A stretch of DNA of 63,357 bases from an uncultured Opitutales bacterium. GTDB lineage: Bacteria > Verrucomicrobiota > Verrucomicrobiia > Opitutales > Seribacteraceae. How positions within the stretch are numbered: the first letter of the stretch is position 1; each line of letters opens with the position of its first letter. The notes beneath the pieces are model-generated. The model ran no database searches. It saw only the letters and a program-made list of their open reading frames with translations, and had not been told where the DNA came from. The stretch spans positions 1-63,357 of the forward strand of contig CAJQSI010000003.1 of assembly GCA_905612515.1 (NCBI GenBank), written 5' to 3'. The position numbers and the translations under genes were made by a program. Positions 5,702 through 56,317 of this stretch are shown here, piece after piece.

Positions 5702-5787
5702 TTTACAAGCAGAGCAAAAGTAGGTTTTCTTTGTTCTTATCCCTTGCCAGCAACGGCCTGAGATTGAAGGATGAAGCGATACCTAAT

Positions 5788-7971
5788 ATGAAAAAAATCA
5801 CCCCTTTTGTTTGCTGCTTTAGCTTCCTGTTCGCGTCCCTTGCCCTCGGTGCCAAGCGGCCCAATATCCTCTACCTCTATGTCGACGATATGGGGTGGGG
5901 GGCGATTGGTCCAAACGGTCAAGCGGATCGAAAGGCCCAAGGCAAGCCCTACGTGCTGACTCCTAACCTTGACCGTCTGGCGGTCGCGGGAGTGAATTTC
6001 CGCAGGGGTTATGGTTGCACGGTCTGCTCGCCGGCCCGCTCCTCCCAGCAGACCGGCTTTCACCAAGGCTACACCTTTGCCGACCGCAACGACCCGAACA
6101 ATGCGAAGAAGGCGATCCGGACAGAGGACCTGACGATGGGAGACGTTCTGGCAAAGGCCGGATACGCGACTGGTTACTGGGGCAAATGGGGCTACGGTGG
6201 TTCCTCGTCCAGGAAGAGCCCTACGCTCGACAATATCCAGACTTTGCCGACTTCTCACGGTTACCAATTCGTGGTGGCCGAATTGCATCACGTGAGGGCC
6301 CATACCTTCTTTCAACCGACCCTCTGGAACGCGCCGGCCAAACCCGGGACGAAGGGCGGACTCGAGCTCAATCCCAACAGTATGGCGAAGTATACGAACA
6401 ACAAGGCATACCCAAATTATCCGGCTTTGCAGAATCATCCGGATTATCCCAAAGTCGCCTACTGCGATGACGTCTATGCCTTCGCCGCTTTGGATTTCGT
6501 ACGCAGGCAAGCGGTCCGTTACAACAAGAGCAGGGAGCCTTTCTTCGGCTTGTTCGCAGCCCAGATCCCCCATGCTCCTTTCAAGGAAGTGCAGAAACTT
6601 CCCAACTGGGACCAGGCGTACAAGGACAAGCCGTACTTTCAAAAACTGGCCGCCCAGTCCCAGCAGTGGTGCGCTATGGTCACCCGGATCGACGCGCACT
6701 TCGGTAATTTACTCGATGCCCTGGACGATCCGAATGGAGACGGGGACAAATCCGATTCGGTTGCCCAAGACACTCTAGTGGTTTTTCAATCGGACAACGG
6801 CGGTCCAAGGGGAAGCAACCGCGAGGAACTGGATGCCAATGGCGGCTTGTTGGGTTCCAAGGGAAGCATTTTCGAGGGAGGGATTCGCGTACCTACCATC
6901 ATGCGCTGGCCGGCCAAGATTACTGCCCGCTCACAACTGAAGACCGGAACGAATACCGACTTGGTCATTGATTGCTCCGATCTGCTTCCCACTTTTTGCG
7001 AATTGGCAGGAGCACCTGTTCCCCTAGGCTTGAGTGGCGTTTCCATAGCCCCCACCTTGACGGGAGAGGGGGAGCAACGGCTTCGCGATTTCCTGATTCA
7101 CGAGGCGGGTGGCCAGGCCTCCATCATACGGGGACGCTACAAGCTGATCCGTTCGCGTGGAAATGCAAAGGCTCCAAAACCAGGCACCAAGAACAAGAAG
7201 CGGACCAAGAAATCCGGAGTCGGCAAGGACGTCGGAAAAGTTCAGCTCTACGACCTGAAGACCGACCCGGCCGAGAAAAACAATATAGCCTCTAAGCGCC
7301 CGCAAGCGGTAAAGGAGCTCAATGCGTTACTCACAGGTGAGCGCGTTGATGAGGCGGCGGGCTTTGCCAACACCTATCATTCCTGGCAGGGAACCAAGGA
7401 TGCCTCACTCGCACACCCGTCCAGTTGGAGCGATTACATTTACCTCAACGCCGGTATCACCTATACGCAGGAGAGTGGCTCCCCGAAAGCCCACTGGTGT
7501 GCGGAAGTTTCCCAAGGTTCGGCCGTGGCGGACAAGGACTCGGAATTTCTAGGACTTGCTCTCAACGGCAGCCTCACGGTGAAGCCCAGAGTGGAGGTCA
7601 GTGCTCGCAATGAACTCCGGGTCGGCAACAAGGGTCGCTTGATTCTCCAAGGCGGTTCGGTGAGCTCTTTGCGCTGGCTGGATATCCAAGCCGGAGGCAC
7701 CTTGATCGGGCACGGGACCGTGAACGCCGCCCTTTACTCAAAGGGCACCTTGTCTCTGAGCTTGGGCAAGCCCTTGGTTGTGGATGGCCCCGCCCAGCTC
7801 TCCGGTAAACTGAGCTTGGCTGAGGTGGGCAAGGCAAAGAGTGGGGAAAGTCTCACCGTCCTGAAGGCAGAATCAATCTCCGGGCGTTTTGACAATGACA
7901 AGATTTCCCATGCGGGACAAAGCTACTCCATCGCCTACACTGCTACCTCCGTCACTCTGACAGCCAAGTAA
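5788..7971 (+). CDS. Secreted sulfatase with beta-helix (autotransporter-like) C-terminus
   Basis: About 727 residues from the ATG at 5788, preferred because it begins a clean signal peptide; the frame is open further upstream. The sulfatase domain spans about residues 24-540. Asp33/Asp34 lie in YVDDMGWG, and the formylglycine site is Cys80 in CSPAR. QSDNGG supplies the later metal ligands. The usual GKWHLG motif reads GKWGYGG, so the conserved histidine is absent. A Lys-rich linker is followed by about 150 residues of short repeats (VSARNELRVGNKGRLILQGG type) resembling autotransporter passenger beta-helices, but no outer-membrane barrel follows. Expected outside the cell, cutting sulfate esters from polysaccharide. 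It should need a formylglycine-generating enzyme, and none that is clearly active is seen here. Confidence 0.85.
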   Translation: MKKITPFVCCFSFLFASLALGAKRPNILYLYVDDMGWGAIGPNGQADRKAQGKPYVLTPNLDRLAVAGVNFRRGYGCTVCSPARSSQQTGFHQGYTFADRNDPNNAKKAIRTEDLTMGDVLAKAGYATGYWGKWGYGGSSSRKSPTLDNIQTLPTSHGYQFVVAELHHVRAHTFFQPTLWNAPAKPGTKGGLELNPNSMAKYTNNKAYPNYPALQNHPDYPKVAYCDDVYAFAALDFVRRQAVRYNKSREPFFGLFAAQIPHAPFKEVQKLPNWDQAYKDKPYFQKLAAQSQQWCAMVTRIDAHFGNLLDALDDPNGDGDKSDSVAQDTLVVFQSDNGGPRGSNREELDANGGLLGSKGSIFEGGIRVPTIMRWPAKITARSQLKTGTNTDLVIDCSDLLPTFCELAGAPVPLGLSGVSIAPTLTGEGEQRLRDFLIHEAGGQASIIRGRYKLIRSRGNAKAPKPGTKNKKRTKKSGVGKDVGKVQLYDLKTDPAEKNNIASKRPQAVKELNALLTGERVDEAAGFANTYHSWQGTKDASLAHPSSWSDYIYLNAGITYTQESGSPKAHWCAEVSQGSAVADKDSEFLGLALNGSLTVKPRVEVSARNELRVGNKGRLILQGGSVSSLRWLDIQAGGTLIGHGTVNAALYSKGTLSLSLGKPLVVDGPAQLSGKLSLAEVGKAKSGESLTVLKAESISGRFDNDKISHAGQSYSIAYTATSVTLTAK

Positions 7972-8503: not shown

Positions 8504-8681
8504 CCTAAAAGGGCACGGTTTCCTTTCTCTGTCTGGTTTAGCCAACCTATCTCGGGTCCGAACCGAGCCACGGGGCATTGCGCTCAAATCCTACAAAATT
8601 ATAGTTTATCGTTTGAAAAAAGAACTTTTACGTCAACAATCCCCAAAGAACTCAAATACAACCCACCTCCAGATAAATCAC

Positions 8682-10079
8682 ATGAAACCAACGACCCTTC
8701 TCTTGGCCTGTGCGCTGACCATTCTCCTTCTTGCCATTGGCACGCTACAAGCAGCTAAGCCCAACTTCATTGTCATCTTCGCCGATGACCAAGGCTATGG
8801 AGACCTGAGTTGTTTTGGCTCCAAGACCATCGATACCCCGAACATCGACCGCATTGCTAAGGAAGGCCGCAAGTTCACTAGTTTCATGGTGGCCTCCCCA
8901 GTCTGCACACCGTCCCGGGCCGCCTTGCTCACGGGGTGCTATCCTAAGCGCGTCGGTATGCACCAGCATGTCTTGTTCCCCTCTTCCTCCAAGGGACTCA
9001 ACCCCAAGGAACACACCATTGCGGATCACTTGAAGGGGCAAGGCTATGCCACCGCTTGTTTCGGCAAGTGGCATCTCGGCCACCACAAGGAAGTGCTGCC
9101 GACCTCCAACGGCTTCGATACTTACTTCGGCATTCCGTATTCCAACGATATGAACCATCCCGACAACAAGGGAAAGCCGAAGGGTGGATGGGCAGGCATG
9201 GATATCCTGTGGGACGACCCCAAGTCGACCCTTACCAAGTGGAAGACCCCCTTGTTCGAGGACGAGAAGATCATCGAGATGCCGGTGGACCAGCGCACCA
9301 TCACGCGGCGATGCACCCAGAAGTCGATCGACTTCATAAAGGCCAACAAAGACAAACCGTTCTTCGTCTACGTACCGCATTCAATGCCGCACATTCCACT
9401 CTATGTTCCTGACGAAATCCGCGACCCTGATTCCAAGAACGCCTATATCAATACCATCGAGCACATTGATTCCGAGGTCGGCCGCCTGCTCAAGACGCTG
9501 GACGACCTCAAGTTGGCCGACAACACCTATGTTATCTACACTACGGACAATGGCCCCTGGTTGCAGTTCCGTCACCATGGAGGTTCCGCAGGACCCCTTC
9601 GCGAGGGCAAGGGAACTACCTTCGAAGGCGGTCAGCGCGTCCCCTGCGTGATGCGTGGTCCGGGAATTCCAGCAGGTACGGTATGCCACGAACTCACCGG
9701 TACCATCGACGTTCTGCCGACCATTGCGGCCCTCACCGGCAAACCGCTTCCGGCCAAGAACAAGATCGACGGACTGGATGCTTCCAGGCTCTGGAAGGGA
9801 ACCGCGAAGAAATCCCCCCGCAAGGAGTTTCTGCATTATACTTCACGTGGCGACCTCGAGGGAATTCGCAGCGGCAATTGGAAGTTGCTCGTCAAAAAAC
9901 CGCGCCGCAACAACGCGGGCAAGGCCCAGTTCCACCTTTTCGATCTCGCTAAGGACATGGGGGAGAAGAACAACCTTGCCGAGACCAAGCCCGCAGCGGT
10001 AAAGGAACTTCAAGCCCGCATGAAGGAACTCGATTCCGAAATCACGAAAAACGCCCGCTCTCCCTGGTTCAAGAAGTAG
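8682..10079 (+). CDS. Secreted sulfatase (arylsulfatase A-like)
   Basis: 465 residues from the ATG at 8682, which gives a normal signal peptide ending in TLQAA; a TTG start at 8613 would add a charged extension and is less likely. The sulfatase domain is complete: FADDQGYGD metal ligands, formylglycine site Cys75 in CTPSR, GKWHLG, the VPHSMPH histidine segment and TTDNGP. The length and the MHQHVL and YTSRGDLEGIR segments fit S1-type polysaccharide or arylsulfatases. The product should act in the periplasm or outside after conversion of Cys75 to formylglycine. The SGNH hydrolase gene starts 22 bases later, suggesting a common transcript. Confidence 0.93.
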   Translation: MKPTTLLLACALTILLLAIGTLQAAKPNFIVIFADDQGYGDLSCFGSKTIDTPNIDRIAKEGRKFTSFMVASPVCTPSRAALLTGCYPKRVGMHQHVLFPSSSKGLNPKEHTIADHLKGQGYATACFGKWHLGHHKEVLPTSNGFDTYFGIPYSNDMNHPDNKGKPKGGWAGMDILWDDPKSTLTKWKTPLFEDEKIIEMPVDQRTITRRCTQKSIDFIKANKDKPFFVYVPHSMPHIPLYVPDEIRDPDSKNAYINTIEHIDSEVGRLLKTLDDLKLADNTYVIYTTDNGPWLQFRHHGGSAGPLREGKGTTFEGGQRVPCVMRGPGIPAGTVCHELTGTIDVLPTIAALTGKPLPAKNKIDGLDASRLWKGTAKKSPRKEFLHYTSRGDLEGIRSGNWKLLVKKPRRNNAGKAQFHLFDLAKDMGEKNNLAETKPAAVKELQARMKELDSEITKNARSPWFKK

Positions 10080-16399: not shown

Positions 16400-17968
16400 A
16401 TGAAGACCCTGCTATCGATTCTCATCCTTGGACTCGGCCTTTGCTCCGCGGCAATTGCCTCGTCCCCGCCGAATATTGTGTTGATCCTGGCCGACGACAT
16501 GGGGCCGGGTGAACCCAGTCACGCCGGTGGCATCATACCGACGCCTACCTTGGATCGCATGGCCAGGGAAGGTATGCGGTTCACCGATGCCCATACCACT
16601 TCGGCGGTTTGCACGCCGACCCGCTACGGCATCCTGACTGGGCGATACAATTGGCGCAGCAGGCTTAAGAGGAGTGTATTGTTCAGGCCCACTGACAAGG
16701 CATTGATGGATCCCGAGCGTCTCAATCTCCCGAACTTCCTCCAAAAGGCGGGCTATTATACCGCCTGCATCGGTAAATGGCACCTAGGGGCCGACTTTGC
16801 GAAGGCGCCGAAAAACCCGAATACGGACAAGAGCAAGCGCGACGCTTCCTGGCAGGTCGACTATGCCAAGCCTTTCAAGAATGGCCCCGTGGACGTCGGG
16901 TTTGACGAGGCCTTTTTCATTCTGTCGTCCCTCGACATGGCGCCTTACGTTTACCTTCGGAACAACCAAGCGGTTTCCTTGCCAACCGTGAACAAGGGAT
17001 TCCCGCATAACGAATACAACAAGTACCAGCGCATCGGGGCCGCCGCGGCGGATTTCGAGGCCAGTGACTGCTTGGCGGACTGGGCCTCCGAGTCACGCGC
17101 TTATATCAAGCAGCGGGCCGGAGACAAAAAGAAGAAGCCTTTCTTTCTTTACCTGCCTCTGACCTCCCCGCACACCCCGATCACTCCCGGGGCAAAGTTT
17201 AAGGGCAAATATCCCCAGTACAGTTGGTACGCGGACTTTATGGCGGAGACCGACTGGGTTGTCGGTCAGGTGCTGGAGCAACTCGAAGAATCGGGGCTCG
17301 ATGACAACACCATGGTCATCTTCACCTCGGACAACGGATTCGCTCCTTACGTCAAAATACCCAAAATGATCAATGCGGGTTATCGTCCCTCCGGTTCCTT
17401 CCGAGGGGCCAAGGCGACCATCTACGAAGGCGGGCATCGCGTGCCTTTCCTGGTCCGTTGGCCGGGCAAGGTGAAGGCCGGGGCAGTCAACCCGACGACG
17501 ATTTGCACGACGGATTTCTTCGCCACCTTCGCCGACTTGCTTGGCAAGAAAGATGACGTTCTGGATAGCGCCGCGGAAGACTCGTTCTCTTTCTTGCCTT
17601 GCCTCAATGGAGCCCAGGAACCGATTCGGCCCTTCACCATACACCATTCCATCTCTGGGGTCTTCGCCATCCGCAAGGGCGACTGGAAGTTGATTCTGAA
17701 CAAAGGCGCCGGGGGAGGTTGGGGCGGATCCTGGGAGACCACCAAGACTACCGCCAAGCTCGTTCAATTGTACAACATGAATGACGATCCCGGAGAAACC
17801 AAGAACTTGGAGCTAGAGCACCCGGCGGTCGTGAAGGAACTGGTCGACGACCTCGCCAAGGCTTTCCGCGACGGGCGCACCACGCCGGGTGAAAAGCAAA
17901 GCAACGATGGGTGGCCCTTTCGCGAAAATGGCATTCTTGCAAAGTTCCCCCAACTTAAGGAGAAGTGA
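16400..17968 (+). CDS. Secreted sulfatase (arylsulfatase type)
   Basis: 522 residues with a signal peptide. Metal ligands lie in LADDMGPGEPSHAGG, the formylglycine site is Cys71 in CTPTR, GKWHLG is intact, and LTSPHTPITP and TSDNGF follow. The RYGILTGRYNWRSRLKR stretch is typical of S1 family arylsulfatases of planctomycetes and verrucomicrobia. It lies inside the DUF1552/DUF1592 block, and its stop overlaps the GTG start of the next cytochrome-like gene (GTGA), so translation of the two is coupled. That places desulfation and the redox-like module in one transcript. Confidence 0.93.
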   Translation: MKTLLSILILGLGLCSAAIASSPPNIVLILADDMGPGEPSHAGGIIPTPTLDRMAREGMRFTDAHTTSAVCTPTRYGILTGRYNWRSRLKRSVLFRPTDKALMDPERLNLPNFLQKAGYYTACIGKWHLGADFAKAPKNPNTDKSKRDASWQVDYAKPFKNGPVDVGFDEAFFILSSLDMAPYVYLRNNQAVSLPTVNKGFPHNEYNKYQRIGAAAADFEASDCLADWASESRAYIKQRAGDKKKKPFFLYLPLTSPHTPITPGAKFKGKYPQYSWYADFMAETDWVVGQVLEQLEESGLDDNTMVIFTSDNGFAPYVKIPKMINAGYRPSGSFRGAKATIYEGGHRVPFLVRWPGKVKAGAVNPTTICTTDFFATFADLLGKKDDVLDSAAEDSFSFLPCLNGAQEPIRPFTIHHSISGVFAIRKGDWKLILNKGAGGGWGGSWETTKTTAKLVQLYNMNDDPGETKNLELEHPAVVKELVDDLAKAFRDGRTTPGEKQSNDGWPFRENGILAKFPQLKEK

Positions 17969-21493: not shown

Positions 21494-23002
21494 CTATTTC
21501 CCGCCTGATACGGAAAGCAACCCGTCGCCAAGTTCCTCCCGTTTGCTTTTTAGCGCAGTCAGCAAGTCTTTCTTCACTGCGGCGTGCCTGGGGTCGTCGA
21601 TCAAGTCCTTAGTCTCCCTCGGATCGTTTTTGATGTCGAACAATTGGCTGCGTCCGATCTTTGGGTAGTGGATCAACTTGAATTGATCCGTCCGCACCAG
21701 GCGCTGTGTCTCGATGTAGCAATTGAATACAAGGTCTTCCCCTCGGGCGCCTTTTTCCCCGTGGACCAAGGGTACTATGCTTGAGTAATGAACTGTTTCG
21801 GGCACCTTCAGTCCCGCTAGTTCGCAGGTCGTGGGGTAGACGCTCTGCATGTAGATCTTCTCGTCCACGGTGGCTCCTTTGCTAATCCCAGGCCCGGATA
21901 TCATAAATGGCATCTTGATGCTGTGATCATAAGGGTTCTGTTTTCCCATGAGCCCATGCTGACCCACGGCGAGGCCATGGTCCGCGGTGAACACGACGTA
22001 GGTTTCGTCGGCTCGCCCGCTTTTCTTCAGTGCCTTCAGGATGCGCCCGATTTCACGGTCCATGTGCGTGATGATGGCGTAGTATTCCGAGCGATGGATC
22101 TGCACCACCTCTTTGGTTCGCGGAAACGGGGCGAGGGCCTCATCGCGTATCTTGATTGCCCCGTTGTCGAAGGGATGTTCGGGTAGGTAGTTCTTCGGTA
22201 TTGCGATCTTCTCCGGCGGATACATGTCGACGAATTTCTTGGGTGCTTGGCGAGGATCGTGAGGGGCGTTGAACGCTACGTACATGAAGAAGGGCTTGTC
22301 CGTGTTCTTCGCCTTTCCGAGGAATTCGATCGCCTTGTCGGCGAATAGCTCGGAGCTATGCTTTTTCACGGTGTATTCATCGCTGACTTCTTGGTCTCCG
22401 TTCTTCGAAACGATGTCGCGTACGAAAGGAGCCCAGTGCCCGGTGAACTTCGGATCCCAAGGGTTCCACTTGTTGTTTGTCGGCGTGGGCCTGTTGTATC
22501 CTGGTTTTTTTGAGCCGCTAGGGTCAAAGGTTTCGTACATTCCCTTGGCGATGGCCTTGGCTTGGCTGAATCCCTTGAGGGCGGAGTAGTAGTTGTTGTG
22601 CCACTTGCCGGTAAGGAAGGTGTCGTAGCCGGCATCGCGGAACACTTCCGGCCACAGCTTAACCTCGGTTGATCCTTCCACTGCAATAGCCCCGCGTGAG
22701 TTGGCCCACTTGTCTAGGTAGGGCTTGTTCTTGGGAGCCCGAAACACGCTTTGCCCGGTGATTAACATGGTTCGACTAGCCACGCACACGGCGCCTGACC
22801 ACGACCCTTGGTTGAAGCAATTGTTAAAGAGAACACCCTGCGTGGCTAGTTTGTCCAAGTTGGGTGTCTTTACTTCCGGGTTATTCACTCCTCCGATGGA
22901 GCGAGGGGCTTGGTCATCGGCTATGATGAAAAGGACATTGGGTTTTTTTGCCGCTACGGTCAAAGGGCTCAGGGCGAGCAAGACGCTGAATAATTTTTTC
23001 AT
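21494..23002 (-). CDS. Secreted sulfatase (iduronate/choline-sulfatase-like branch)
   Basis: 502 residues with a signal peptide (FSVLLALSPLTVAA). Metal ligands are in IIADDQAPRS, the formylglycine site is Cys73 in CVASR (a C-x-A-x-R form with Ala for Pro), then LTGKWHN, FMYVAFNAPHDPRQAP and TADHGLAVGQHGLMGK. The last motif and the CVASR site are typical of the S1 group containing iduronate-2-sulfatases and related glycan sulfatases. It is the last gene of a minus-strand run that includes a serine hydrolase and a sialate O-acetylesterase, with gaps of only about 25 bases, so one operon is likely. Confidence 0.92.
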   Translation of the reverse strand: MKKLFSVLLALSPLTVAAKKPNVLFIIADDQAPRSIGGVNNPEVKTPNLDKLATQGVLFNNCFNQGSWSGAVCVASRTMLITGQSVFRAPKNKPYLDKWANSRGAIAVEGSTEVKLWPEVFRDAGYDTFLTGKWHNNYYSALKGFSQAKAIAKGMYETFDPSGSKKPGYNRPTPTNNKWNPWDPKFTGHWAPFVRDIVSKNGDQEVSDEYTVKKHSSELFADKAIEFLGKAKNTDKPFFMYVAFNAPHDPRQAPKKFVDMYPPEKIAIPKNYLPEHPFDNGAIKIRDEALAPFPRTKEVVQIHRSEYYAIITHMDREIGRILKALKKSGRADETYVVFTADHGLAVGQHGLMGKQNPYDHSIKMPFMISGPGISKGATVDEKIYMQSVYPTTCELAGLKVPETVHYSSIVPLVHGEKGARGEDLVFNCYIETQRLVRTDQFKLIHYPKIGRSQLFDIKNDPRETKDLIDDPRHAAVKKDLLTALKSKREELGDGLLSVSGGK

Positions 23003-29644: not shown

Positions 29645-31798
29645 ATGAACCCCATAGTCTTGATACCGATTTATTTCCTTCTTTGCCTATCGATTTACGC
29701 CAATCCTCGTCCCAATGTGATCGTCGTACTGGTCGACGACATGGGCTACTCGGACCTTGGGTCCTTCGGGGGGGAGGTCAAGACCCCGCACTTAGATCGT
29801 CTCGCGGCCAATGGCCTGCGCTTTACCCAGAATTATAATTCCGCCCGTTGCTGTCCCTCCCGGGCCTCCCTGCTTACGGGCTTGTACTCTCATCAGGCTG
29901 GCATCGCGAACTTCACGGGTCGGGATTCGACCGACCGGTTGGGTCCGGCCTATCTGGGTAAGTTGAACAAGCAGTGCATGACGCTGGCCGAGACTCTCAA
30001 GTCCTCCGGGTACCAGACTTATGGTGTGGGGAAGTGGCACGTCGGGCACGAGGAATCCCCCACGGATCGGGGCTTTGACGAGTACTACGGCTACATCCGC
30101 GGGCACAGCACGAGCCAGTGGAAGGAGGGTAATTACATGCGCTTGCCCGTAGGCAGGACCCCGGAAATCAAGTTCGAGTCGGACTCCTTTTACGCAACCG
30201 ACGCCTTCAACGAATATGCGGTCGAATTTCTCAAGCAGGCCCGAAAAAAGGAACCCCCGTTCTTTCTATACCTTGCTCATTCATCTCCTCATTTTCCCCT
30301 TCATGCCCCGGCGAAGACCCGGGACCGTTACCTTGATACCTACCGTAAGGGATGGGACGTCCTGAGGAAGGAACGCTTCGAACGGCAAAGCAGTTCAGGT
30401 CTGGTTACCGATTCGTGGAAGTTCACCGGACTTTCCGAGGTTCCGGTCGATGTGGACGCGATTGCCAATCACTACGCTGGCAAGCCGAACCCGGACTGGA
30501 AGGACGTTCCTGAAAACCGCAGGGAAGATCTGGCTTACCGGATGGCCACCTTTGCCGCCATGATCGATCACGTCGACCAAGGGATTGGGAAAATCATCGA
30601 CCAACTTGAAAAAGGTGGGGACTTGGCGAACACCCTCATTCTCTTCACCAGCGACAACGGTGCCTGTTACGAGTGGGGCCCCTTTGGTTTTGACCGAAGC
30701 AGTCGTAAATGTTTCACCCAGCTTCACGAAGGTGATGACCTCAAGGAGGTGGGTGGCCCGGGAACCTATCACTCGGTGGGCAGCGCCTGGTCCTGCCTGA
30801 GCAACACGCCCTTGCGGATGTACAAGCACTTCAATCACGAGGGAGGAAATTGCAGTCCTCTGCTTGCTCATTGGCCCAAAGAGATAAGCAAGCCTAACCG
30901 CTGGGTGCGTTCCCCCGTTCACTTGATCGACGTCATGCCCACCTTGCTTGAGGTTGGTGGAGCCGACTACCCGAAGAAGTTCAAGGACGAGGAAATCATT
31001 CCGGTCGAGGGCAGGAGCCTGGTACCCTTTTTCGAGGGAGCCGGCAAGGCGAGCGAACGGGTTCTCTGTTTCGACCATTTCGACTCCAGCGCCATCCGTA
31101 AGGGGGACTGGAAACTGGTGCGTGGAAACAACCGCTACAAGAAGCGGACTTGGGAACTATACAACCTGGCCGAGGACCGGTGCGAGACGAAGAACCTGAT
31201 CGAGTCTAGTTCGGACAAGGCCAAGGAACTGGAAGCCGAGTGGCTGGCTTGGGCAAAGAGGGTCAAGGTCAACCCTTACTACTCGCATGTGCAGCAAAAC
31301 CTTGCCAAGGAAAGAACCAGCCTGAAAAAGGATGCCCAGGGTTTCTACCTGCTCAAGCAGGGTGACCGGGTGAATCGCGAGCACGCCCCTGATTTCTCTC
31401 AAAAGGCCATCGAGATTCATCTTGCCGTTACCAGAGGCAAGGAAAAGGGAGGGGTCTTGATCTCCCATGGAGGAAGCCGTAACGGGTACTCCTTGTACCT
31501 CGAGGATGGCAAACCCACCTTTTCCTGTCGTTTGGGAGGCGCCTTGCATACCTTTCGGGCAACCCAAGCCTTACCCAAGGACCGAATCTCCTTGTCCGTC
31601 CTAGTCGCCGCTGACGGGAGAGTGTCCCTAGGAATGGGTGACGAGGTTCTTGCTGAAGGAAAGGTCCCGGGCCTCTTCAAGGGTTTGCCCCAAGACCCGC
31701 TTGAGGTAGGCAACGATTCCCAGTCAACGGTGGTAAGTTATTCCTTCAGTCCCCGCTTCAAGGGCAAAGTCCATGAGGCCAAGCTCAAGCTCAAGTAA
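29645..31798 (+). CDS. Secreted sulfatase with C-terminal LamG-like domain
   Basis: 717 residues with a signal peptide (IVLIPIYFLLCLSIYA). The sulfatase domain (about 22-535) has VDDMGYSDLGSFGG, the formylglycine site Cys69 in CCPSR, GKWHVGH, AHSSPHFPLHAP and TSDNGACYEWGPFG. It fits the arylsulfatase A/atsA-like branch whose members are about 550 residues. The extra 170 residues at the end (FSQKAIEIHLAVTRGKEKGG, GYSLYLEDGKPTFSCRLGG, RISLSVLVAADGRVSLGMG) form a concanavalin/LamG-like fold, likely for binding glycan. Gene order suggests its own promoter. An SGNH esterase gene follows. Confidence 0.92.
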   Translation: MNPIVLIPIYFLLCLSIYANPRPNVIVVLVDDMGYSDLGSFGGEVKTPHLDRLAANGLRFTQNYNSARCCPSRASLLTGLYSHQAGIANFTGRDSTDRLGPAYLGKLNKQCMTLAETLKSSGYQTYGVGKWHVGHEESPTDRGFDEYYGYIRGHSTSQWKEGNYMRLPVGRTPEIKFESDSFYATDAFNEYAVEFLKQARKKEPPFFLYLAHSSPHFPLHAPAKTRDRYLDTYRKGWDVLRKERFERQSSSGLVTDSWKFTGLSEVPVDVDAIANHYAGKPNPDWKDVPENRREDLAYRMATFAAMIDHVDQGIGKIIDQLEKGGDLANTLILFTSDNGACYEWGPFGFDRSSRKCFTQLHEGDDLKEVGGPGTYHSVGSAWSCLSNTPLRMYKHFNHEGGNCSPLLAHWPKEISKPNRWVRSPVHLIDVMPTLLEVGGADYPKKFKDEEIIPVEGRSLVPFFEGAGKASERVLCFDHFDSSAIRKGDWKLVRGNNRYKKRTWELYNLAEDRCETKNLIESSSDKAKELEAEWLAWAKRVKVNPYYSHVQQNLAKERTSLKKDAQGFYLLKQGDRVNREHAPDFSQKAIEIHLAVTRGKEKGGVLISHGGSRNGYSLYLEDGKPTFSCRLGGALHTFRATQALPKDRISLSVLVAADGRVSLGMGDEVLAEGKVPGLFKGLPQDPLEVGNDSQSTVVSYSFSPRFKGKVHEAKLKLK

Positions 31799-39452: not shown

Positions 39453-42400
39453 ATGCGCGCAATAACATTACTTTTCGCACTCTTCTTCTATTCTTTCATT
39501 GGCTCGGTTCGTGCTCAGGACGTCCGCTTTCCGGCCATCCTAATCAAAGGGGCCGACCTCACCCTGATCGAGTGCGAAATTACCCGCGTCCTTGACGACG
39601 GGACGATCTCCTTCAAGCCAACCGGTGAAGGCGGGCTCGAGCAAGGCGTCGTCTATGCCGTTCTGGTTAACAAGCGCGAAATCACCCGCATCCAGGTATC
39701 GGAGGAAAAAGCCAAGGCAAGCTTGGCCAAGCCCGTGCCCGGACACCGTAGCCTCAAGGGCGTCCCCAAGGGAACCAAGGTAATGCTCCAAGCCGTCGAG
39801 GGAGGAGGGGCCTCGAAATACGTCCCGCTGCGCATGGACGAACTAACGATCGACGTGAAGGTCGTGGCCAACCTCGCGGTCACCACCCTGAGCATGAGTT
39901 TTCATAACGACCTGAACCGCGTGCTCGAGGGACGCCTCAACTTTCCCCTTGGGGAAGGACAGACCGTTTCGCGCTTCGCCATGACCGTCAACGGCAAGCT
40001 TCGCGAGGGCGTGGTGGTGGAAAAGGCCAAGGGTCGACAGGTATTCGAAACCATCGTCCGCCGGGGGATCGACCCTGGTTTGCTCGAGTGGACCAAGGGC
40101 AACGTCTTCAAGGCCCGCGTCTACCCCATCCTCGCCAAGGGGGACAAGAAAATCGTCATCGCCTACGAGCAGGAACTCAAGGATGCGGGCAAGGGATTTC
40201 TCTACTCCCTGCCGCTTCACTTTCAGGCAAAGGTCGACCGCTTTCACCTTCGGGCAGAAGTGTTCAAGCAGGACATTGCACCCGACCTAGGTTCCAACGA
40301 GCTGGCCAACCTGCGCTTCGAGAAGTGGAACGAATCCTTCCTCGCCGAGACGACGAAGGAAAATTACCTGCCCAACCAGAGCCTCGCCTTCCAGCTCCCC
40401 AAGCAGGCCGACCGTCAGCGCATCTTCGTTGAGGGACCAGACGAAAAAACCTACTTTTATCTGAGCGTGAACCCCAAGGTTATCCGAAAGGCTAAGACCC
40501 TGCCCAAGAAGGTGGGCCTGATCTGGGACGCCTCTGCCTCAGCTCGTAGCCGGAATCTGGAAAAAGAACTCGCCGTTCTCGGTGACTACTTCTCGGAAAT
40601 CGGAGACCTCACGGTCACTTTGGTGGTTTTCCGAAATGAAGTTGAGCAGGCTCGTGAATTCACCGTGCGAAAGGGTGACTGGAAAAAACTCGCCGACGTA
40701 TTAAGCAAATTGCCCTACGACGGAGGTACCCAGCTCGGGGCACTCGACTTGACGAAATATGCCTGCGACGAGTTCATCCTCTCCACCGACGGCGTATCCA
40801 ATTTCGGGAAATCAGAACTTGCCCACGGCAAGGCCCCGGTCTACACGCTGAACTCTTCCCCCGTAGCCGAGCACGCCTATTTGCGCTATGTTTCTCAGGC
40901 CACCTCAGGGGCCTACCTGAATCTGGCCAACCTGACCAAGACCGAGGCTCAGGCCAAACTTGTCTCGGTTCCCTACTCCTTCCTCGGCGTCAGGCAAGAG
41001 GGTGAAGGCGTTACTGAGACCTATCCTCGAACCGCCGTTCCGGTCGACGGTTCCTTCTCCTTGGCCGGTATGCTCAAGGGTCCGGGCTCTGCCATCACTT
41101 TGGAATTCGGTTCGGGCGGAAAAGTCCTGCACACCGAAAAGATCACTCTCGACCGCAAGGCTCATGGCTCGGACAGCGGGCTTGCCCGGCGCATCTGGGC
41201 CCAGAAGAAAATCGCCGAGCTGGAGCTTCGCCCGAACAAGCATGAGGATGAAATCACCGAACTGGGCCAGGAACATTCCATCGTTACCCGCAACACCTCA
41301 CTCATCGTGCTCGACCGGTTGGAGGATTACGTTACCCACCGCATCATCCCCCCCGAGTCCGACCTGTGCCAGCAATACCTCGCCAAGATCGAACAGCAGC
41401 AAAAGATTGAGGACTTGGGACGTGAGGGACGGATCGCGGGCGTGGTGAACAAATTCGAGCAGCGAGTCGCCTGGTGGAACAATACCTTTAAGTTCGGCAC
41501 GGGCAAGCCCCCCCGGTTGAGCAAGAACAATGAAAATGAGGGTGGATTCTTGATCGGCTTGCGAAATTTTTTCTCTTTTGGGACAAGAACCGCCGAGAAT
41601 GATTTCATCGAAGGTCCACGTGAAAGTTCTAATGCAGAAATAGAGCCCTTCGCTAGTGCTGATGAGGTACTTATCCAACAAGACTCTTTGAACGAATCGG
41701 CGCTTATGCCCCATGTTCTGGCTGAGGTCATTGCCATAAGCGATGATTCCCTTGATCTCTCCTTGGACGGCGCGCCTTTTGAGGCTAGGGTTGAAGAAAG
41801 CAAAAGTCGAGACTCGGGTCCACCTCCCGCAGGTGCAATCAAGCTTAAGAAGTGGAACCCGAAGACCCCTTACCTCGCTAAGCTCAAGAAAGCCAAAGCC
41901 GGGGAGTGGTATCCCGTCTACCTCGAGCAACGCGAGGAGAACGAAGGCAGTTCCGCCTTCTTTCTCGATGTCTCTGATTTCTTTCTCGAGAAGAAACAGC
42001 CCGGGCTCGCCCTGCGCATCCTTTCCAACGTGGCCGAGATGGAACTCGAGAACCCGCAGTTGCTCCGCATACTCGGCTACCGGCTCATGCAAGTTGGCCG
42101 ACCCAAGCTCGCGGTCGCCGTGTTCGAGGAGATCCTAAAGATGCGCGAGGAAGAACCCCAGTCCTACCGCGACCTAGCCCTCGCCCTCGCCGCCGACAAG
42201 CAACACCGGCGGGCCGTCGACCTGCTCCGCCAAGTTGTGGAAGGCAAATGGAACGGACGCTTCCCCGAGATCGAGCTGATCGCCCTCAACGAGGTGAACG
42301 CCATCATCGCCACCTGCGGAAAGGAACTCGAACCGAGCAACCTCGACAAGCGTCTCCTCGAGAACCTGCCCGTTGACGTGCGGGTCATCCTGACCTGGGA

Positions 42401-42782
42401 TGCGGACAACACCGACATGGATCTCTGGGTGACCGACCCGAACGGAGAGAAATGCTATTACGAACACCGTGACACTTATATCGGTGGGCATATCTCGCGC
42501 GACTTTACCGGTGGTTACGGACCCGAGGAATTCCTTCTCAAGCGGGCCCAACCCGGCAAGTATCTGGTGCACGTGAACTATTACGGTAACCGCCAGCAAG
42601 TCATTGCGGGCGCCACCACCATCCAATTGGAAATGACCACAGACTTCGGAAAGCCCATCGCCAAGACCGAGGCTGTCACTCTGCGTCTGCAGGGATCCAA
42701 GGAAGTGATCAAGGTCGGCGAGTTCGTGATCCCCGGGAAATCGAGCAAGCAAAACCGCGTCAAGACTGGCAGGAGAAAATGA
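39453..42782 (+). CDS. Secreted VIT/vWFA-domain protein with TPR-like and DUF2135 domains
   Basis: 1109 residues with a signal peptide. In order: a short beta domain; the VIT domain (about 125-275, VPLRMDELTIDVKVVANLAVTT, RLNFPLGEGQTVSRFAMTVNGK); a vWFA domain from about 350 with an intact MIDAS D-x-S-x-S (Asp359, Ser361, Ser363) and ILSTDGVSN; a linker; two TPR-like helix pairs at about 840-930 (QPGLALRILSNVAEME, RPKLAVAVFEEILKMREEE); and a C-terminal DUF2135-type domain with TWDADNTDMDLWVTDPNGE. This domain set occurs in large extracellular proteins binding metal and other proteins. The next gene, a small lipoprotein, overlaps its stop by four bases. Confidence 0.88.
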   Translation: MRAITLLFALFFYSFIGSVRAQDVRFPAILIKGADLTLIECEITRVLDDGTISFKPTGEGGLEQGVVYAVLVNKREITRIQVSEEKAKASLAKPVPGHRSLKGVPKGTKVMLQAVEGGGASKYVPLRMDELTIDVKVVANLAVTTLSMSFHNDLNRVLEGRLNFPLGEGQTVSRFAMTVNGKLREGVVVEKAKGRQVFETIVRRGIDPGLLEWTKGNVFKARVYPILAKGDKKIVIAYEQELKDAGKGFLYSLPLHFQAKVDRFHLRAEVFKQDIAPDLGSNELANLRFEKWNESFLAETTKENYLPNQSLAFQLPKQADRQRIFVEGPDEKTYFYLSVNPKVIRKAKTLPKKVGLIWDASASARSRNLEKELAVLGDYFSEIGDLTVTLVVFRNEVEQAREFTVRKGDWKKLADVLSKLPYDGGTQLGALDLTKYACDEFILSTDGVSNFGKSELAHGKAPVYTLNSSPVAEHAYLRYVSQATSGAYLNLANLTKTEAQAKLVSVPYSFLGVRQEGEGVTETYPRTAVPVDGSFSLAGMLKGPGSAITLEFGSGGKVLHTEKITLDRKAHGSDSGLARRIWAQKKIAELELRPNKHEDEITELGQEHSIVTRNTSLIVLDRLEDYVTHRIIPPESDLCQQYLAKIEQQQKIEDLGREGRIAGVVNKFEQRVAWWNNTFKFGTGKPPRLSKNNENEGGFLIGLRNFFSFGTRTAENDFIEGPRESSNAEIEPFASADEVLIQQDSLNESALMPHVLAEVIAISDDSLDLSLDGAPFEARVEESKSRDSGPPPAGAIKLKKWNPKTPYLAKLKKAKAGEWYPVYLEQREENEGSSAFFLDVSDFFLEKKQPGLALRILSNVAEMELENPQLLRILGYRLMQVGRPKLAVAVFEEILKMREEEPQSYRDLALALAADKQHRRAVDLLRQVVEGKWNGRFPEIELIALNEVNAIIATCGKELEPSNLDKRLLENLPVDVRVILTWDADNTDMDLWVTDPNGEKCYYEHRDTYIGGHISRDFTGGYGPEEFLLKRAQPGKYLVHVNYYGNRQQVIAGATTIQLEMTTDFGKPIAKTEAVTLRLQGSKEVIKVGEFVIPGKSSKQNRVKTGRRK

Positions 42783-49349: not shown

Positions 49350-49412
49350 GTCCACATCCTCGTGCTAGGACCACCGAAAACAATTTCAAATCAACCTAGG
49401 AAACAAAAAAAT

Positions 49413-50450
49413 ATGAAACTCCATAGCGCAATCACACGCACTTTCACGCTCGCTCTACTGGCGACTTTTGCCCTGCCTCTTGCAGCCAAGCCGGTCAAGG
49501 TCTTCATCGTCATGGGCCAGTCAAACACGCTCGAGATGGGCCAGGTAAAGGGCGATAAAGAAGGCACTCTTGAACACGCCGTCAAGAACGAGAAACTGTA
49601 CTCCTTCATGGTCGATGGGGCAGGGGAGTGGACGACCCGCAAGGACGTCCGCAACGTGCATGTCATGGGCAGCGGAGGTCCTGGTAAAACCCGGGAGATG
49701 CGCAACGACTGGCTAACCGTTTCCGGAGGAAAGATCGGCATAGAGACCGGAATCGGTCATCAACTTGGTGATGCCCTGGATGAACCCGTATTGATTCTCA
49801 AGAGTTCGATCGGCAACCGTAGCCTCGGCTGGGATCTCCTTCCTCCCGGCAGTCCCCGCCACGAGGTTGAGACGACCGACAAAAAGACCGGGAAGAAAAT
49901 CACTTTGGTTACGCCCGCTCACAAGGATGAAGTTCGTCATTCAAGTTGGACGAAGGGCGAGGTGCCCGATCCGCCCAAGCATACTTGGCATGCAGGGCTC
50001 CAATACTTGGGGGACGTGGCTCGGGCCAAGGACGTGCTCAAGAACTTGGGCAAGTATTACCCTGACGCGACCGAATATGAGGTCGCCGGCTTCCTCTGGT
50101 GGCAGGGTGACAAGGACCGCTACAACGCGGCTCATTCAGCCGTGTACGAAAAGAACCTCCACCAGCTCTTCAAGGCTCTCCGCAAGGAGTTCAATGCACC
50201 CAAGGCCAAGATGGTAGTCGCCACCCTAGGCCAGACCAACAAGGACAGCGCCACCGGCAACGAGAAATTGATCATCGACGGCATGTTCGCCTTTGCCAAA
50301 GCGCACAAGGGTGAAGCCGCCACCGTCTACACCAACCCGCTGAGCATGGGTTCCTCTTCCAATGCTCACTACGGCGGAAATGCCAAGACCTACATGAACG
50401 TCGGAATCGGCATGGGCAAAGCGATGGTCGAGTTATTGAAAAACAAGTAG
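49413..50450 (+). CDS. Sialate O-acetylesterase-like secreted esterase, short form
   Basis: 345 residues with a signal peptide (TRTFTLALLATFALPLAA). SASA-type SGNH domain: nucleophile in IVMGQSNTLEMG, GIGHQLGD and LKSSIGNRSLGWD, WWQGDKDRYN and a last histidine in SNAHYGGNAKTYMNVG. The start at 49413 is chosen because it opens the leader. The next gene has the same catalytic blocks with an extra domain. A role in deacetylating polysaccharide is likely. Confidence 0.85.
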   Translation: MKLHSAITRTFTLALLATFALPLAAKPVKVFIVMGQSNTLEMGQVKGDKEGTLEHAVKNEKLYSFMVDGAGEWTTRKDVRNVHVMGSGGPGKTREMRNDWLTVSGGKIGIETGIGHQLGDALDEPVLILKSSIGNRSLGWDLLPPGSPRHEVETTDKKTGKKITLVTPAHKDEVRHSSWTKGEVPDPPKHTWHAGLQYLGDVARAKDVLKNLGKYYPDATEYEVAGFLWWQGDKDRYNAAHSAVYEKNLHQLFKALRKEFNAPKAKMVVATLGQTNKDSATGNEKLIIDGMFAFAKAHKGEAATVYTNPLSMGSSSNAHYGGNAKTYMNVGIGMGKAMVELLKNK

Positions 50451-50530
50451 GCAAAAGTTCGTTACCGAGGCCAATGCACTTGAAGTCGGCCGACCGAGTC
50501 CGTCTTTGAAGTTTGGTTCAACAATCATTG

Positions 50531-51946
50531 ATGAAAAATTTCTCTGCAATTCGATCAGTTCTCTTGAAATGGGCGACGCTCGTATTCACGTTTGGCTTAT
50601 CCTTCTTACTCGCTGAGGAATTTGAAGCGGCGGGAAAGCCCATCAAGGTTTTCATCCTTTCCGGACAGTCCAACATGGTGGGAGCGGGAAAAGTGGATGG
50701 GGGAAGCAGTCGCTGGGGAAAACAGTTCATCGACCCGGTGGTATCGGTCTACAAGGGGGACTACGATCCTGAAGTGGACTACGACTCCATGGAACCGACC
50801 AAGACCTTGAAGCTAGAAGCATTCGGCGGCGTGCGCCCAACGCCCTATCCCGGTGGAGGTGTTCAAGTTACCCGTGGATCCGTCCGGGTAAAGGAGACGG
50901 GTATCTACGAGTTCCGTCCCGGTTACGGGGGATCGACATACAACGTCATGGAAGTCGACGGAAAGGTCGTCCACCGGCAGGAAGTCGGACTGAAGTCGAT
51001 TCGCACGGAAATCAAACTGGAAGGTGGCAAGAAGGTTCCTTTCAAGATCACTTACTTCACCAAGCAGGCCAATGGCTTGGGGTGGATCGTCCGCCTGGAC
51101 GTGCCCGGAGCCCTCTCGACCATGGTGAAATTCAAGGGAATGTACCCATACCTGATTGATGAGAACAGGCAATGGGCAGCTCGTGACGACGTCTGGTACA
51201 GAGGCGTGGTTACTGCGGTGGGAAATCGATGGTTGGGAGTTAGCGGAGGACGCATCGGTCCGGAAATTGGCTTTGGTCATGTTGTCGGCAATCATTGCGA
51301 GGAGCCGGTCCTCATTCTCAAGACCTCGCAGGGAAACCGTTCGCTTTCCTGGGACTTCCTTACTCCTGGTAGCAAGCGCTTCGAGTACGGCGGAAAGATC
51401 TACGCGGGATACAAGGAGTCACCGCTCTCCTGGGACAAAGGGACCACGCCCAAACCCATCAATTGGTATGCCGGCAAGCAGTACGACGACTGCTTCGGAG
51501 CCGCTCATCAAGTACTGGACGATTTCGACAAGGAGTTTCCTCATTGGAAGGGCAGGGGATACGAGATCGAGGGCTTTGCATGGTGGCAGGGCGACAAGGA
51601 TCGCTACGTCGATGGGCATGCCTTTCAATACGAGAAGAACCTCGTTCGCTTGATCAAGACTTTGCGCAAGGAATTCAATGCGCCTAAGGCCAAGTTCGTC
51701 GTGGCTACCCTCGGACAAACTCCGAAGGATGCTCTTCCCGGCAACGACAAACTCATCCTCGATGCCCAGTTGGCCGTGGACGGCGCGACCGGCAAGTACC
51801 CGGAGTTCAAAGGAAACGTCTCCACTGTTTATACCCATCCGCTTAGCCAGGGCGGAGCCTCCAATAGTCACTACGACGGAAACGCCCAGACCTATATGGA
51901 CGTAGGTGTAGCAATGGGTGAAGCCATGGTCGAACTACTCAAGTAG
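50531..51946 (+). CDS. Sialate O-acetylesterase-like secreted esterase with inserted domain
   Basis: 471 residues from the ATG at 50531. Catalytic blocks match the preceding gene: ILSGQSNMVGAG, LKTSQGNRSLSWD, AWWQGDKDRYVD and SNSHYDGNAQTYMDVG. Between the first and second block, about residues 85-215, lies an extra beta domain (VQVTRGSVRVKETGIYEFRPG, NVMEVDGKVVHRQEV) resembling a PA14/carbohydrate-binding fold; the short paralogue lacks it. Signal peptide present. It is followed after five bases by a small membrane protein gene. Confidence 0.85.
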   Translation: MKNFSAIRSVLLKWATLVFTFGLSFLLAEEFEAAGKPIKVFILSGQSNMVGAGKVDGGSSRWGKQFIDPVVSVYKGDYDPEVDYDSMEPTKTLKLEAFGGVRPTPYPGGGVQVTRGSVRVKETGIYEFRPGYGGSTYNVMEVDGKVVHRQEVGLKSIRTEIKLEGGKKVPFKITYFTKQANGLGWIVRLDVPGALSTMVKFKGMYPYLIDENRQWAARDDVWYRGVVTAVGNRWLGVSGGRIGPEIGFGHVVGNHCEEPVLILKTSQGNRSLSWDFLTPGSKRFEYGGKIYAGYKESPLSWDKGTTPKPINWYAGKQYDDCFGAAHQVLDDFDKEFPHWKGRGYEIEGFAWWQGDKDRYVDGHAFQYEKNLVRLIKTLRKEFNAPKAKFVVATLGQTPKDALPGNDKLILDAQLAVDGATGKYPEFKGNVSTVYTHPLSQGGASNSHYDGNAQTYMDVGVAMGEAMVELLK

Positions 51947-52177: not shown

Positions 52178-52813
52178 ATGAAAACCATGAAAAATATATT
52201 CACCATCTTAGCCTTTGCTTGCGTTAGCTTCGCTGGCTACAGTGTTCACGCACAAGAATCGGCGGTTTCCGTTCAGGTGACGGTACCCGACGGCGGATGG
52301 AAAATCCGAATCGTTCAAGTTTACCAAACCTCCACTCACCTTCTCGTCGTTTCCGAACTCGAGCGAAGCCAGGGACTGGCCATTCAGGTCATCAGTCAAG
52401 CCAAGGACTCGGTAAAGATTAAGGCCACCAAACTGCCCGTCCGGCATTTCGTTCTGGGAAAAACCTGGAATTGGACGAACAAGGAGCCCTATGCTTTCCT
52501 TTTCGACCCAAAGGAACTTTCCAAGAAGGTGGCTGGAGCAAAACTCGTTTTCCAAGCGAAGCCCAAGGAAAATGCGACGGCCAAGGTCAGCTACATCGTG
52601 GTCTACAAGAAAGAGATTTTTACAGACGGGAAAACCAAGCAAGGGGAGACCCTGCAACAACTGGCCATGCGGCATTGCAAAGAACTGGGAGCCTCTTCCC
52701 CTAGCGTGCTCCGAATCATCAACGGCTTTGCCGCCAAATTCCCTTCCGGAAACGTTCCGAAGCTCAAGGCGCTCCCGGAAGTAAAATACATCGAGATGGA
52801 CCAAGGCTTCTGA
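52178..52813 (+). CDS. Secreted stand-alone inhibitor-I9-like (subtilisin propeptide-like) protein
   Basis: 211 residues with a signal peptide ending VHAQ; the start is 52178 or the ATG at 52187. Residues about 25-135 form a beta-rich region of unknown type. Residues about 138-211 have the I9/propeptide pattern: YIVVYKKEIFTDGKTKQGET, RIINGFAAKFPSG, and the last strand PEVKYIEMDQ, which corresponds to 'DPEVEYVEPD' ahead of a subtilisin domain. No protease domain follows and none is encoded nearby, so it should be a free inhibitor or chaperone for a secreted subtilase elsewhere. Confidence 0.7.
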   Translation: MKTMKNIFTILAFACVSFAGYSVHAQESAVSVQVTVPDGGWKIRIVQVYQTSTHLLVVSELERSQGLAIQVISQAKDSVKIKATKLPVRHFVLGKTWNWTNKEPYAFLFDPKELSKKVAGAKLVFQAKPKENATAKVSYIVVYKKEIFTDGKTKQGETLQQLAMRHCKELGASSPSVLRIINGFAAKFPSGNVPKLKALPEVKYIEMDQGF

Positions 52814-53656: not shown

Positions 53657-56317
53657 ATGAAATTTAAAAACGTATTTAACGGCGGGTTGATTCTCCTCTC
53701 TATCGGCACAGTAAGCCTCGGGTTGGCCAAGGAGGAGGAACTTGCGCCTCTTACCCAAGCCGGGCTGAAGATCGAGGCCCATTACGCCAAGCAATTGGAC
53801 GATCTGCGGGCTCGTTTAACCAAAGAGATCCCCTTCGATCCCGCTCCGACTACCGAGGAGGCTCGGGACAAGAAATTCGATTTCCCCGAGGTCGAACTCG
53901 GGAAGGGCAAAAAGAGCGGCGAACATTCCCTTGAGGAACTGTTCACCGAGGAGGAAGAACCGGGGAAAACGCCTCCAACGCAGGAAGAGAAAATGTCTTT
54001 CTTTATGACCAGCGATAAGCTCGACGACCTTCTGGTCAAGTTCGTCGTCCTCCTCGACGCCACACCTCGGGGTCTGGCGGAATTTGGTCAGCAAAGCAAA
54101 GCACATTTTGCCTTGACCGAGCGGTTGTTCTCGGACGCCGAATTGATGAATCGAATGCTCATCGCAGACGGAGCCCAATCCAAGCGAGTTCGACACGGTT
54201 ACGGACCCGCCCGCTTCGGAGAGGCCATGGAAATTTACGAAGGAATACTAAAGAAGAGTTCAAAGTCCAAGAGTGGGATCCTCAACAGGCTGGCCTTGGC
54301 CATCGCCCTCGAGCACGCCTTGCCGGTCAAGCAGACGAATCCCTTGGTTCTGGAGGATGCTCCTGCCACGGTCGACCCGCTCAAGCGCTACCTCCACTAC
54401 GAAAAGGCCTTTCTCGATGGCGAACTGGACCCGACCTTCAAGGAATTGAGCGTATGGAGCCTCCGCATGGTCGTGAACGGGGACGAACCGGACGAGACCT
54501 TGGTCTGGGGACGCCGCATGCTGCGCAACTTCAGACCCGACCATATCTACGAATCGAATTTCGGATGGCGCTACGTCGGAGTCGTCAGCTCGAACGTCCA
54601 ATACGGCTCGGGTGACGTGAAGTACGACAGACCCGAATTGCAAAAATACCAGAACATTCTCATGAATGGCGGCATATGCGGAAGGCGGGCCTTTTTCGGC
54701 CGCTTCATCCTTCGCTCCTTCGGGGTTCCCACCACAGCCCGTCCGAGCCGAGGGCACGGCGCCCTCGCCCGATGGACGCCCGGTGGTTGGTGTGTAAACT
54801 TGGGACCGGGTTGGGGTTCGGGCTGGACAGCCACGCGCTACCGGAAAGATCTCGACTTTCTCGCAAGCTCCAAGGCCCGCAAAAACAAGTACGCGTTCCT
54901 CGAAGTCAAGAGAGCGCAATGGATCGGAGACGTTTTCGGAGAGAAAAGAATTCACGGTGATAATGACCAAAGCCTCACCTTCAACAGCCTCGTAACACTC
55001 AAACCCGATTTCTGGAATGGTTTGGCTCTGAACGCCCAAAGCAAGATCATCAAGGATTTGAAGGAAGTAACCTTGGAAGCTCTGGGCGAGGAGCTGGGGG
55101 AATCAAACAAGGCCACCATTGCCCAACAGGTAATCGCCTCCCCGGTCGATCCTAAGGAACATAAGATCGCCCGCGCCGAAAACGGCTCGATCTCAATCCC
55201 CTCAGTCGCCTACTCCAATCCGACGGGCAGCACACGAGAAGTCCTTTCCATGAAGAGCTTCGCGGGCGGCATGCAAATCTTTCTTCCCCGTTTTGCGCCG
55301 GAAGGCCTGACCGTTATGCGTGGAGGGACTTGGAAGGGAGAGGCAGGCGCCTGCGCCTCGGGCAGTCGAATGCTCAGCGGAGGCTACGGCAGGTATGAGA
55401 ACTGGGGACTGCGGGCCGCAATGACGCCGCCGGCCGGGAAGAAACCAGCCAAGGAACTGACGCTCGATTTGGGTGATGGCGTGACCATGGAATTCATTTA
55501 CGTAAAGCCCGGAACCTTCGTTATGGGAGGAGAGAACGAGAAAGGCGGCCGTTTCGAATGCGTGGAGGTACCGAAACACGTTGTGGGTCTCACCCAAGGT
55601 TTTTACTTAGGCAAGTACGAGGTGACCCAAGCTCAGTACCAAGTCGCCATGGGATCGAACCCCCGCCGCTCGACCAAGAACCCGGACTGCCCGGTTGACA
55701 ACGTCTCCGAGCCCGACGCCCTCCAGTTTTGCATCCGGGTCAGTGAGATCGCTGACGTCGACGCAAGGCTTCCCACCGAGGCGGAGTGGGAATATGCCAG
55801 CCGTGCTGGAAAAAGTACCAAATGGTTTTTCGGGGACGATCCTTCCAAGATCGGAGACTATGTATGGTTCAAGGACAACGCGGGAGGAAAGTCCCATCCC
55901 GTGGGAGAGAAAAAACCAAACCCCTGGGGCTTTTACGATACCTATGGAAACGTCTGCGAGCGCATTTCCGACAAGTACCACAAGGATTACTACGCGAAGA
56001 GCCCGAAGACCGACCCGACAGGTCCCAAGCAAGCCATCAAATCCCGCTTCGGGTACAAGGTGACGGCTTCCAAAGCGGGCAAGTATTCCCTCGAAGCCAG
56101 GGTGGTTACGGCCAATTATGACCAGAGGATCAAGGTTTCGGCCAACGAGGGCCAGGAGTTAGCCATGAAAATGCCCTTCACCGAAGGAGTTTGGCAAAGC
56201 TCGCAACCCGTTGAGGTCACTCTGATCAAAGGTGAAAACCTTCTGAATTTCTGGCGCGACGAACCACCCCAAAAAGGCGTGGCGATCAAGGAATTCGTCC
56301 TCACGCCAGTAAAGTAA
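53657..56317 (+). CDS. Mosaic secreted protein: transglutaminase-like, permuted FGE-like and CBM-like
   Basis: 886 residues with a signal peptide. A transglutaminase-like core has Cys341 in NGGICGRRAFFG and His367 in SRGHGALARWTPGGW. Near 553-592 stands MRGGTWKGEAGACASGSRM...WGLRAAM, which equals the C-terminal signature of FGE/SUMF1 domains (RGGSW..RSAxR..GFR). Only after it comes the N-terminal half: VKPGTFVMGG, LGKYEVTQAQYQVAMG, RLPTEAEWEYASRAGKS, NPWGFYDTYGNVCE. The usual RGGSW end is missing behind it and is replaced by a CBM6/35-like segment (about 785-886). The FGE-like part is thus permuted. Only one Cys lies in the signature, so real formylglycine-generating activity is doubtful. Confidence 0.75.
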   Translation: MKFKNVFNGGLILLSIGTVSLGLAKEEELAPLTQAGLKIEAHYAKQLDDLRARLTKEIPFDPAPTTEEARDKKFDFPEVELGKGKKSGEHSLEELFTEEEEPGKTPPTQEEKMSFFMTSDKLDDLLVKFVVLLDATPRGLAEFGQQSKAHFALTERLFSDAELMNRMLIADGAQSKRVRHGYGPARFGEAMEIYEGILKKSSKSKSGILNRLALAIALEHALPVKQTNPLVLEDAPATVDPLKRYLHYEKAFLDGELDPTFKELSVWSLRMVVNGDEPDETLVWGRRMLRNFRPDHIYESNFGWRYVGVVSSNVQYGSGDVKYDRPELQKYQNILMNGGICGRRAFFGRFILRSFGVPTTARPSRGHGALARWTPGGWCVNLGPGWGSGWTATRYRKDLDFLASSKARKNKYAFLEVKRAQWIGDVFGEKRIHGDNDQSLTFNSLVTLKPDFWNGLALNAQSKIIKDLKEVTLEALGEELGESNKATIAQQVIASPVDPKEHKIARAENGSISIPSVAYSNPTGSTREVLSMKSFAGGMQIFLPRFAPEGLTVMRGGTWKGEAGACASGSRMLSGGYGRYENWGLRAAMTPPAGKKPAKELTLDLGDGVTMEFIYVKPGTFVMGGENEKGGRFECVEVPKHVVGLTQGFYLGKYEVTQAQYQVAMGSNPRRSTKNPDCPVDNVSEPDALQFCIRVSEIADVDARLPTEAEWEYASRAGKSTKWFFGDDPSKIGDYVWFKDNAGGKSHPVGEKKPNPWGFYDTYGNVCERISDKYHKDYYAKSPKTDPTGPKQAIKSRFGYKVTASKAGKYSLEARVVTANYDQRIKVSANEGQELAMKMPFTEGVWQSSQPVEVTLIKGENLLNFWRDEPPQKGVAIKEFVLTPVK

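Follow-up and report, generated by a model that had tools for sequence, protein, structure and literature searches.

The question raised by this locus is whether an FGE/SUMF1-like domain can be whole when its natural end stands in front of its natural start. The window, by which we mean the entire 63,357-nucleotide stretch of DNA from an uncultured Opitutales bacterium that was analysed, carries on its forward strand a gene at 53657..56317 (886 amino acids, stop included), whose reading frame and coordinates were confirmed. The encoded protein begins with a likely signal peptide (about residues 1-24, 53657..53728, +), recognized by eye as a short basic start and a hydrophobic stretch. Its only Pfam domain is FGE-sulfatase, which matches residues 612-786 at positions 4-205 of the 255-position profile and falls short of the profile end, so that by annotation the FGE domain lacks its end. 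Two other sources of a disturbed domain order were considered and dismissed, namely a frameshift, as the gene is a single open frame, and an assembly artefact, as the same join is found in dozens of independent genomes.

Order and completeness of the FGE unit

The end that annotation misses lies upstream of the Pfam match. The unit consists of a C-part, the natural end of the domain (residues 551-591, 55307..55429, +), a new linker delimited by alignment (residues 592-604, 55430..55468, +) and, connected to the natural end by this linker, an N-part, the natural start (residues 605-792, 55469..56032, +; Pfam PF03781, E 3e-29). In a phmmer search, residues 552-590 align weakly to positions 255-293 of 294, the last residues of Treponema denticola TvpA, a protein with the FGE-type fold. 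On a canonical profile of 238 positions, built from 24 canonical FGE units of PVC bacteria (this genome and its relatives), residues 552-591 fall at 196-235 and residues 606-794 at 4-194; the two pieces cover the profile without overlap and with almost nothing missing (4-235 together), and the same complementary coverage is observed in every FGE-bearing homolog. Profile-profile comparison by hhalign with a template of 53 canonical units (231 positions) places the C-part at 191-230 (probability 96.4, E 1e-9) and the N-part at 1-185 (E 5e-77), together 1-230, while the carbohydrate-binding domain used as a control reached a probability of 1.1%. With 18.6 bits, the C-part segment lies above the 9.0 bits attained by the best of 5000 shuffles (0/5000 reach the real score); a Pfam scan of isolated C-parts gave no match.

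Few stretches of the family are as conserved as the C-part, whose invariant residues include R555, G556, G557, G576, Y577, G578, Y580, W583, G584 and R586, and the RLPTEAEWEYA and GNV motifs of FGE are retained in this protein. The protein matches the PF03781 fold over the whole profile in swapped order, and the canonical N-to-C order of that fold is absent from it. The original prediction, which placed the end segment of an FGE domain ahead of its start segment, is borne out by the profiles, by hhalign and by the homologs: the order is real, complete and conserved. Judged from these alignments, the FGE unit is a permuted but whole domain and does not represent a decayed duplicate or a local error.

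The original prediction also proposed a structure prediction that would reveal whether the front segment belongs to a separate domain. A first AlphaFold2 run on the full length with 38 similar family rows gave pLDDT values below 50 for the C-part. The second run covered residues 497-886 with 84 rows (family members, halves of the carbohydrate-binding domain from FGE-less relatives, tandem junctions and canonical N-parts), leaving out whole FGE-less rows and short canonical C-part rows (misplaced by MAFFT). It reached a mean pLDDT of 91.2 and a pTM of 0.74 with no residue below 50 and the C-part blocks at 81-91, a confidence partly lent by the tandem-array and canonical N-part rows in the alignment. 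Residues 767-774, all but missing as a strand in the first run, form an eight-residue strand in the second, as expected if they pair with residues 551-555. The C-part is thus confident in the 390-residue model, and we infer that it packs in the usual FGE slot through contact of residues 551-555 with 767-774. Foldseek searches with the second model returned FGE folds (2y3c, 2q17 and PvdO; TMt 0.51-0.60) as well as CBM35/6. In the CLec fold, the N-terminal and C-terminal strands are paired (PMC5006420), which makes such a permutation sterically easy.

Other folds are known to have undergone natural circular permutation. The supposition that permuted FGE folds are undescribed agrees with our search of the open-access literature, where no description of a circular permutation of FGE or of the C-type-lectin fold was found; an earlier description elsewhere is possible.

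The host domain and the probable history of the insertion

The FGE unit is flanked by the two parts of a CBM6/35-like domain, residues 509-545 (55181..55291, +) and 797-886 (56045..56314, +). In about 40 FGE-less relatives the same domain is uninterrupted, residue 545 being joined to residue 798 by about six residues; across the join the sequence reads GGMQ(L/M)HYSR and then G..xxFEYxFDAPAAGKY. Three of the first homologs (L049-L051) lack residues ~543-792 altogether. The AlphaFold2 models show strands at 512-515, 530-533 and 539-543 in the first part of the domain. Pfam assigns CBM_6 in 26/38 members and CBM_35 in 14/38, mostly with weak matches, and in one relative (L081) the CBM_6 match spans 1-108 without interruption. 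The assignment to CBM6/CBM35 rests on these profile matches, weak in many members, and on the sandwich fold: Foldseek finds the CBM35 module CtCBM35 (2wz8) with TMt 0.58-0.59 and an rmsd of 1.9. Unlike such modules, the beta-sandwich of this protein is broken by a domain of 250 residues and its profile scores are weak. As the domain is contiguous in the FGE-less relatives and supported by the Pfam and Foldseek matches, the FGE unit is nested inside it. The claim that a carbohydrate-binding-like domain had replaced the normal end of the FGE domain was therefore wrong, the second half of the surrounding domain having been taken for a replacement.

A search of other genomes, likewise suggested at the outset, found the permuted order in at least 42 homologs from Verrucomicrobiota, Planctomycetota and Lentisphaerota; the hosts include Opitutia, Verrucomicrobiales, Akkermansiaceae, Pirellulaceae, Phycisphaerae and Lentisphaera. 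Scanning of genome contigs yielded 44 loci that carry family homologs, most of them collinear over the full length, and 13 full or near-full homologs exceed 60% identity. No member examined in this family has a normally ordered FGE domain. Searches with the transglutaminase-like part alone added about 40 further FGE-less proteins in both phyla. These PVC proteins of transglutaminase-like and CBM architecture share 35-59% identity with the FGE-bearing ones over the common parts and differ by the absence of the FGE unit, scoring at most 2.4 bits on the canonical FGE profile; the two kinds of paralogs occur together within single genomes. In one genome, a second FGE-bearing copy (L144, G390:C222) has its frame broken inside the FGE N-part, with similarity continuing to the end.

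A tree was built from the shared parts only (residues 116-545 and 798-884; 89 rows) and rooted on distant relatives. All 42 FGE-bearing rows fall into a single derived clade (SH-aLRT 100) that branches within the 47 FGE-less rows, for which a single insertion is the simplest history; the permuted insertion seems to have arisen once and to have been kept by the relatives. The phyla are intermixed inside this clade, which suggests transfer of the FGE-bearing gene between lineages.

Tandem FGE arrays are present in the same genome (contig C22 with three units, C97 with two) and in relatives, their copies lying 7-49 residues apart. The C22 array (L177, C22:1-5000) is encoded as a protein of about 1150 amino acids, and at another locus (L173, G083:C1:5639500-5646500) neighbouring genes with one, two or three FGE units each form a large local expansion. 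Reading from one point in a tandem copy to the equivalent point in the next gives exactly the permuted order, so that a tandem array is a natural source from which the unit probably originated. In a tree of N-parts the donor was not found; the nearest sampled canonical unit belongs to a protein with a single FGE (L107), and the tandem units of the same genome are not close to the permuted one. Among the open reading frames of the loci gathered for canonical FGE, a narrow sample, no permuted FGE was seen outside this family.

The following history would account for these observations. In this account the gene encodes a secreted protein whose transglutaminase-like Cys/His domain precedes a CBM6/35-like beta-sandwich. 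A single lineage would then have gained, between two sandwich strands, an entire FGE-type unit (C-type-lectin fold) whose natural end and start were joined by the short linker and whose new opening was the loop leading into the RVxRGGSW strand. Joining the natural first and last strands would cost little, since they are paired with each other, and the new ends, being the two sides of one loop, would suit insertion. The unit would probably have come from two adjacent tandem copies, as the segment running from one point in the first to the corresponding point in the second.

Active-site residues and rival explanations

An alignment free of gaps pairs the segment RGGTWKGEAGAC with RGGSYLCHDSYC of S. 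coelicolor FGE, so that the catalytic Cys336/272 corresponds to Gly561 (55337..55339, +) and Cys341/277 to Cys566 (55352..55354, +). The active-site cysteine pair (human Cys336/Cys341) is thereby lost. The Cys336-equivalent position is Gly in 35 of those members that were counted, and Gly or Asp/Asn in nearly all; the Trp of the GNVxEW motif is replaced by Arg in 42/42 members (Arg769 here). Compared with FGE/SUMF1 (PF03781; S. coelicolor, human), the sequence and the predicted fold are the same except for the joining order, whereas the swapped parts, the nesting in a CBM, the absence of the cysteine pair and the Trp-to-Arg change set this unit apart.

Were the C-part the leftover of a decayed first FGE domain and the N-part a second copy minus its end, the two pieces would not need to form one domain. 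Proteins with tandem FGE units abound in these genomes and show this local order too, and as a DNA history this reading comes close to the tandem-array model preferred above; it is nevertheless improbable, as the C-part shows no decay (~14 of its residues are invariant across three phylum-level groups), the profile coverage is exactly complementary, intact CBM sequence reaches the insertion point and residues 395-545 hold no trace of a first N-part. The degenerate first copy, named in the original prediction as an outcome that would refute it, finds no support, residues 395-545 scoring -3.2 bits on the canonical FGE profile. Slightly less probable again is a domain-swapped pair, in which the C-part would complete the FGE fold of a neighbouring chain in a dimer or oligomer. 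Every sequence test made is compatible with such an exchange, but the linker (~13-20 residues) connects strands which are ordinarily paired, and AlphaFold2 is confident of the monomer.

We give the least credence, and very little, to a permuted unit that is still catalytic and oxidises a cysteine or another group via the lone Cys566. That residue is kept in 39/42 members and the region is rich in sulfatases; against this stand the substitution of the Cys336 equivalent in nearly all members, the strong effect on FGE activity of mutating either Cys336 or Cys341 (PMC4505483) and the universal Arg in place of the GNVxEW Trp. A permuted FGE unit, brought by one insertion into the CBM and most likely serving as a non-catalytic ligand-binding module, is very probably the best explanation overall. 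The chances are about even for the fuller scenario, which combines out-of-register capture from a tandem array into a CBM loop in one event, a ligand-binding end fixed for a specific ligand, and spread among PVC bacteria.

Putative role of the protein

TvpA, the best PDB match, and Mtd are variable proteins of diversity-generating retroelements with an FGE-type C-type-lectin fold, and the C-part corresponds to the chain end that bears their variable ligand-binding region (PMC5006420); here, unlike in those proteins, it is conserved and has moved to the front of the domain. The near-invariant GGYGRYENWG stretch occupies the place where such folds bind ligand, which makes a non-catalytic binding module the best reading; the balance of probability tilts towards a lectin-like module of this kind. 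Next to the CBM, the FGE unit would most likely act as another ligand-binding module that has no catalytic function, and this module may help the Cys/His domain to act on a glycan or glycoconjugate.

The N-terminal half contains a transglutaminase-like core (about residues 240-430, 54374..54946, +) with the invariant family motif GG(V/I)CGRRAF..GRF..GIPT...GHAAL..WTP.GW. The proposed transglutaminase-like Cys341 (54677..54679, +) and His367 (54755..54757, +) hold up as residues, both invariant in 42/42 FGE-bearing members and set in the GGxCG ... GH context of the triad. The class assignment fares less well, since profile support is weak and the third triad residue, Asp, is not seen: the position that follows GW holds Asn, or sometimes Cys, in this family (residue 381; the true site of the Asp is unsure). 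Pfam transglutaminase profiles do not match the 886-residue protein and give a weak Transglut_core hit in one distant relative (L085, E 0.01, below the cut-off), and a PDB profile search with this region returned no convincing match. The domain may plausibly be read as transglutaminase-like.

Two adjacent SASA-type carbohydrate esterases are encoded upstream (49362-50450 and 50513-51946). A SASA esterase is found in the flanks taken for 18/35 FGE-bearing and 10/20 FGE-less loci, while there are only 9-44 SASA copies per genome. Five sulfatases are encoded in the window (5731-7971, 8613-10079, 16400-17968, 21494-23002 and 29645-31798). The presence of an FGE domain in this sulfatase-rich region was initially considered notable, but this richness is no ground for expecting that the protein activates sulfatases. 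Genomic context and residue loss suggest that the protein probably acts in the handling of polysaccharides or glycoconjugates that carry acetyl or sulfate groups. The window also holds two complete DUF1552/DUF1592-type pairs, a large protein with a VIT domain and DUF2135 (39453-42782), and a secreted protein that has a peptidase inhibitor I9-like domain at its C-terminus (52178-52813; E 1.5e-5) with no neighbouring subtilase seen.

The locus carries a warning for annotation, as Pfam reports a truncated FGE domain where a complete one exists. Forms with and without the insert are still extant, often together in a single genome, and a possible source, the tandem arrays, is present in relatives, so that the steps from a tandem repeat to a permuted nested domain can be compared directly. 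The family thus presents an unusual rewiring of a well-known fold in a secreted protein of marine Verrucomicrobia and Planctomycetes.
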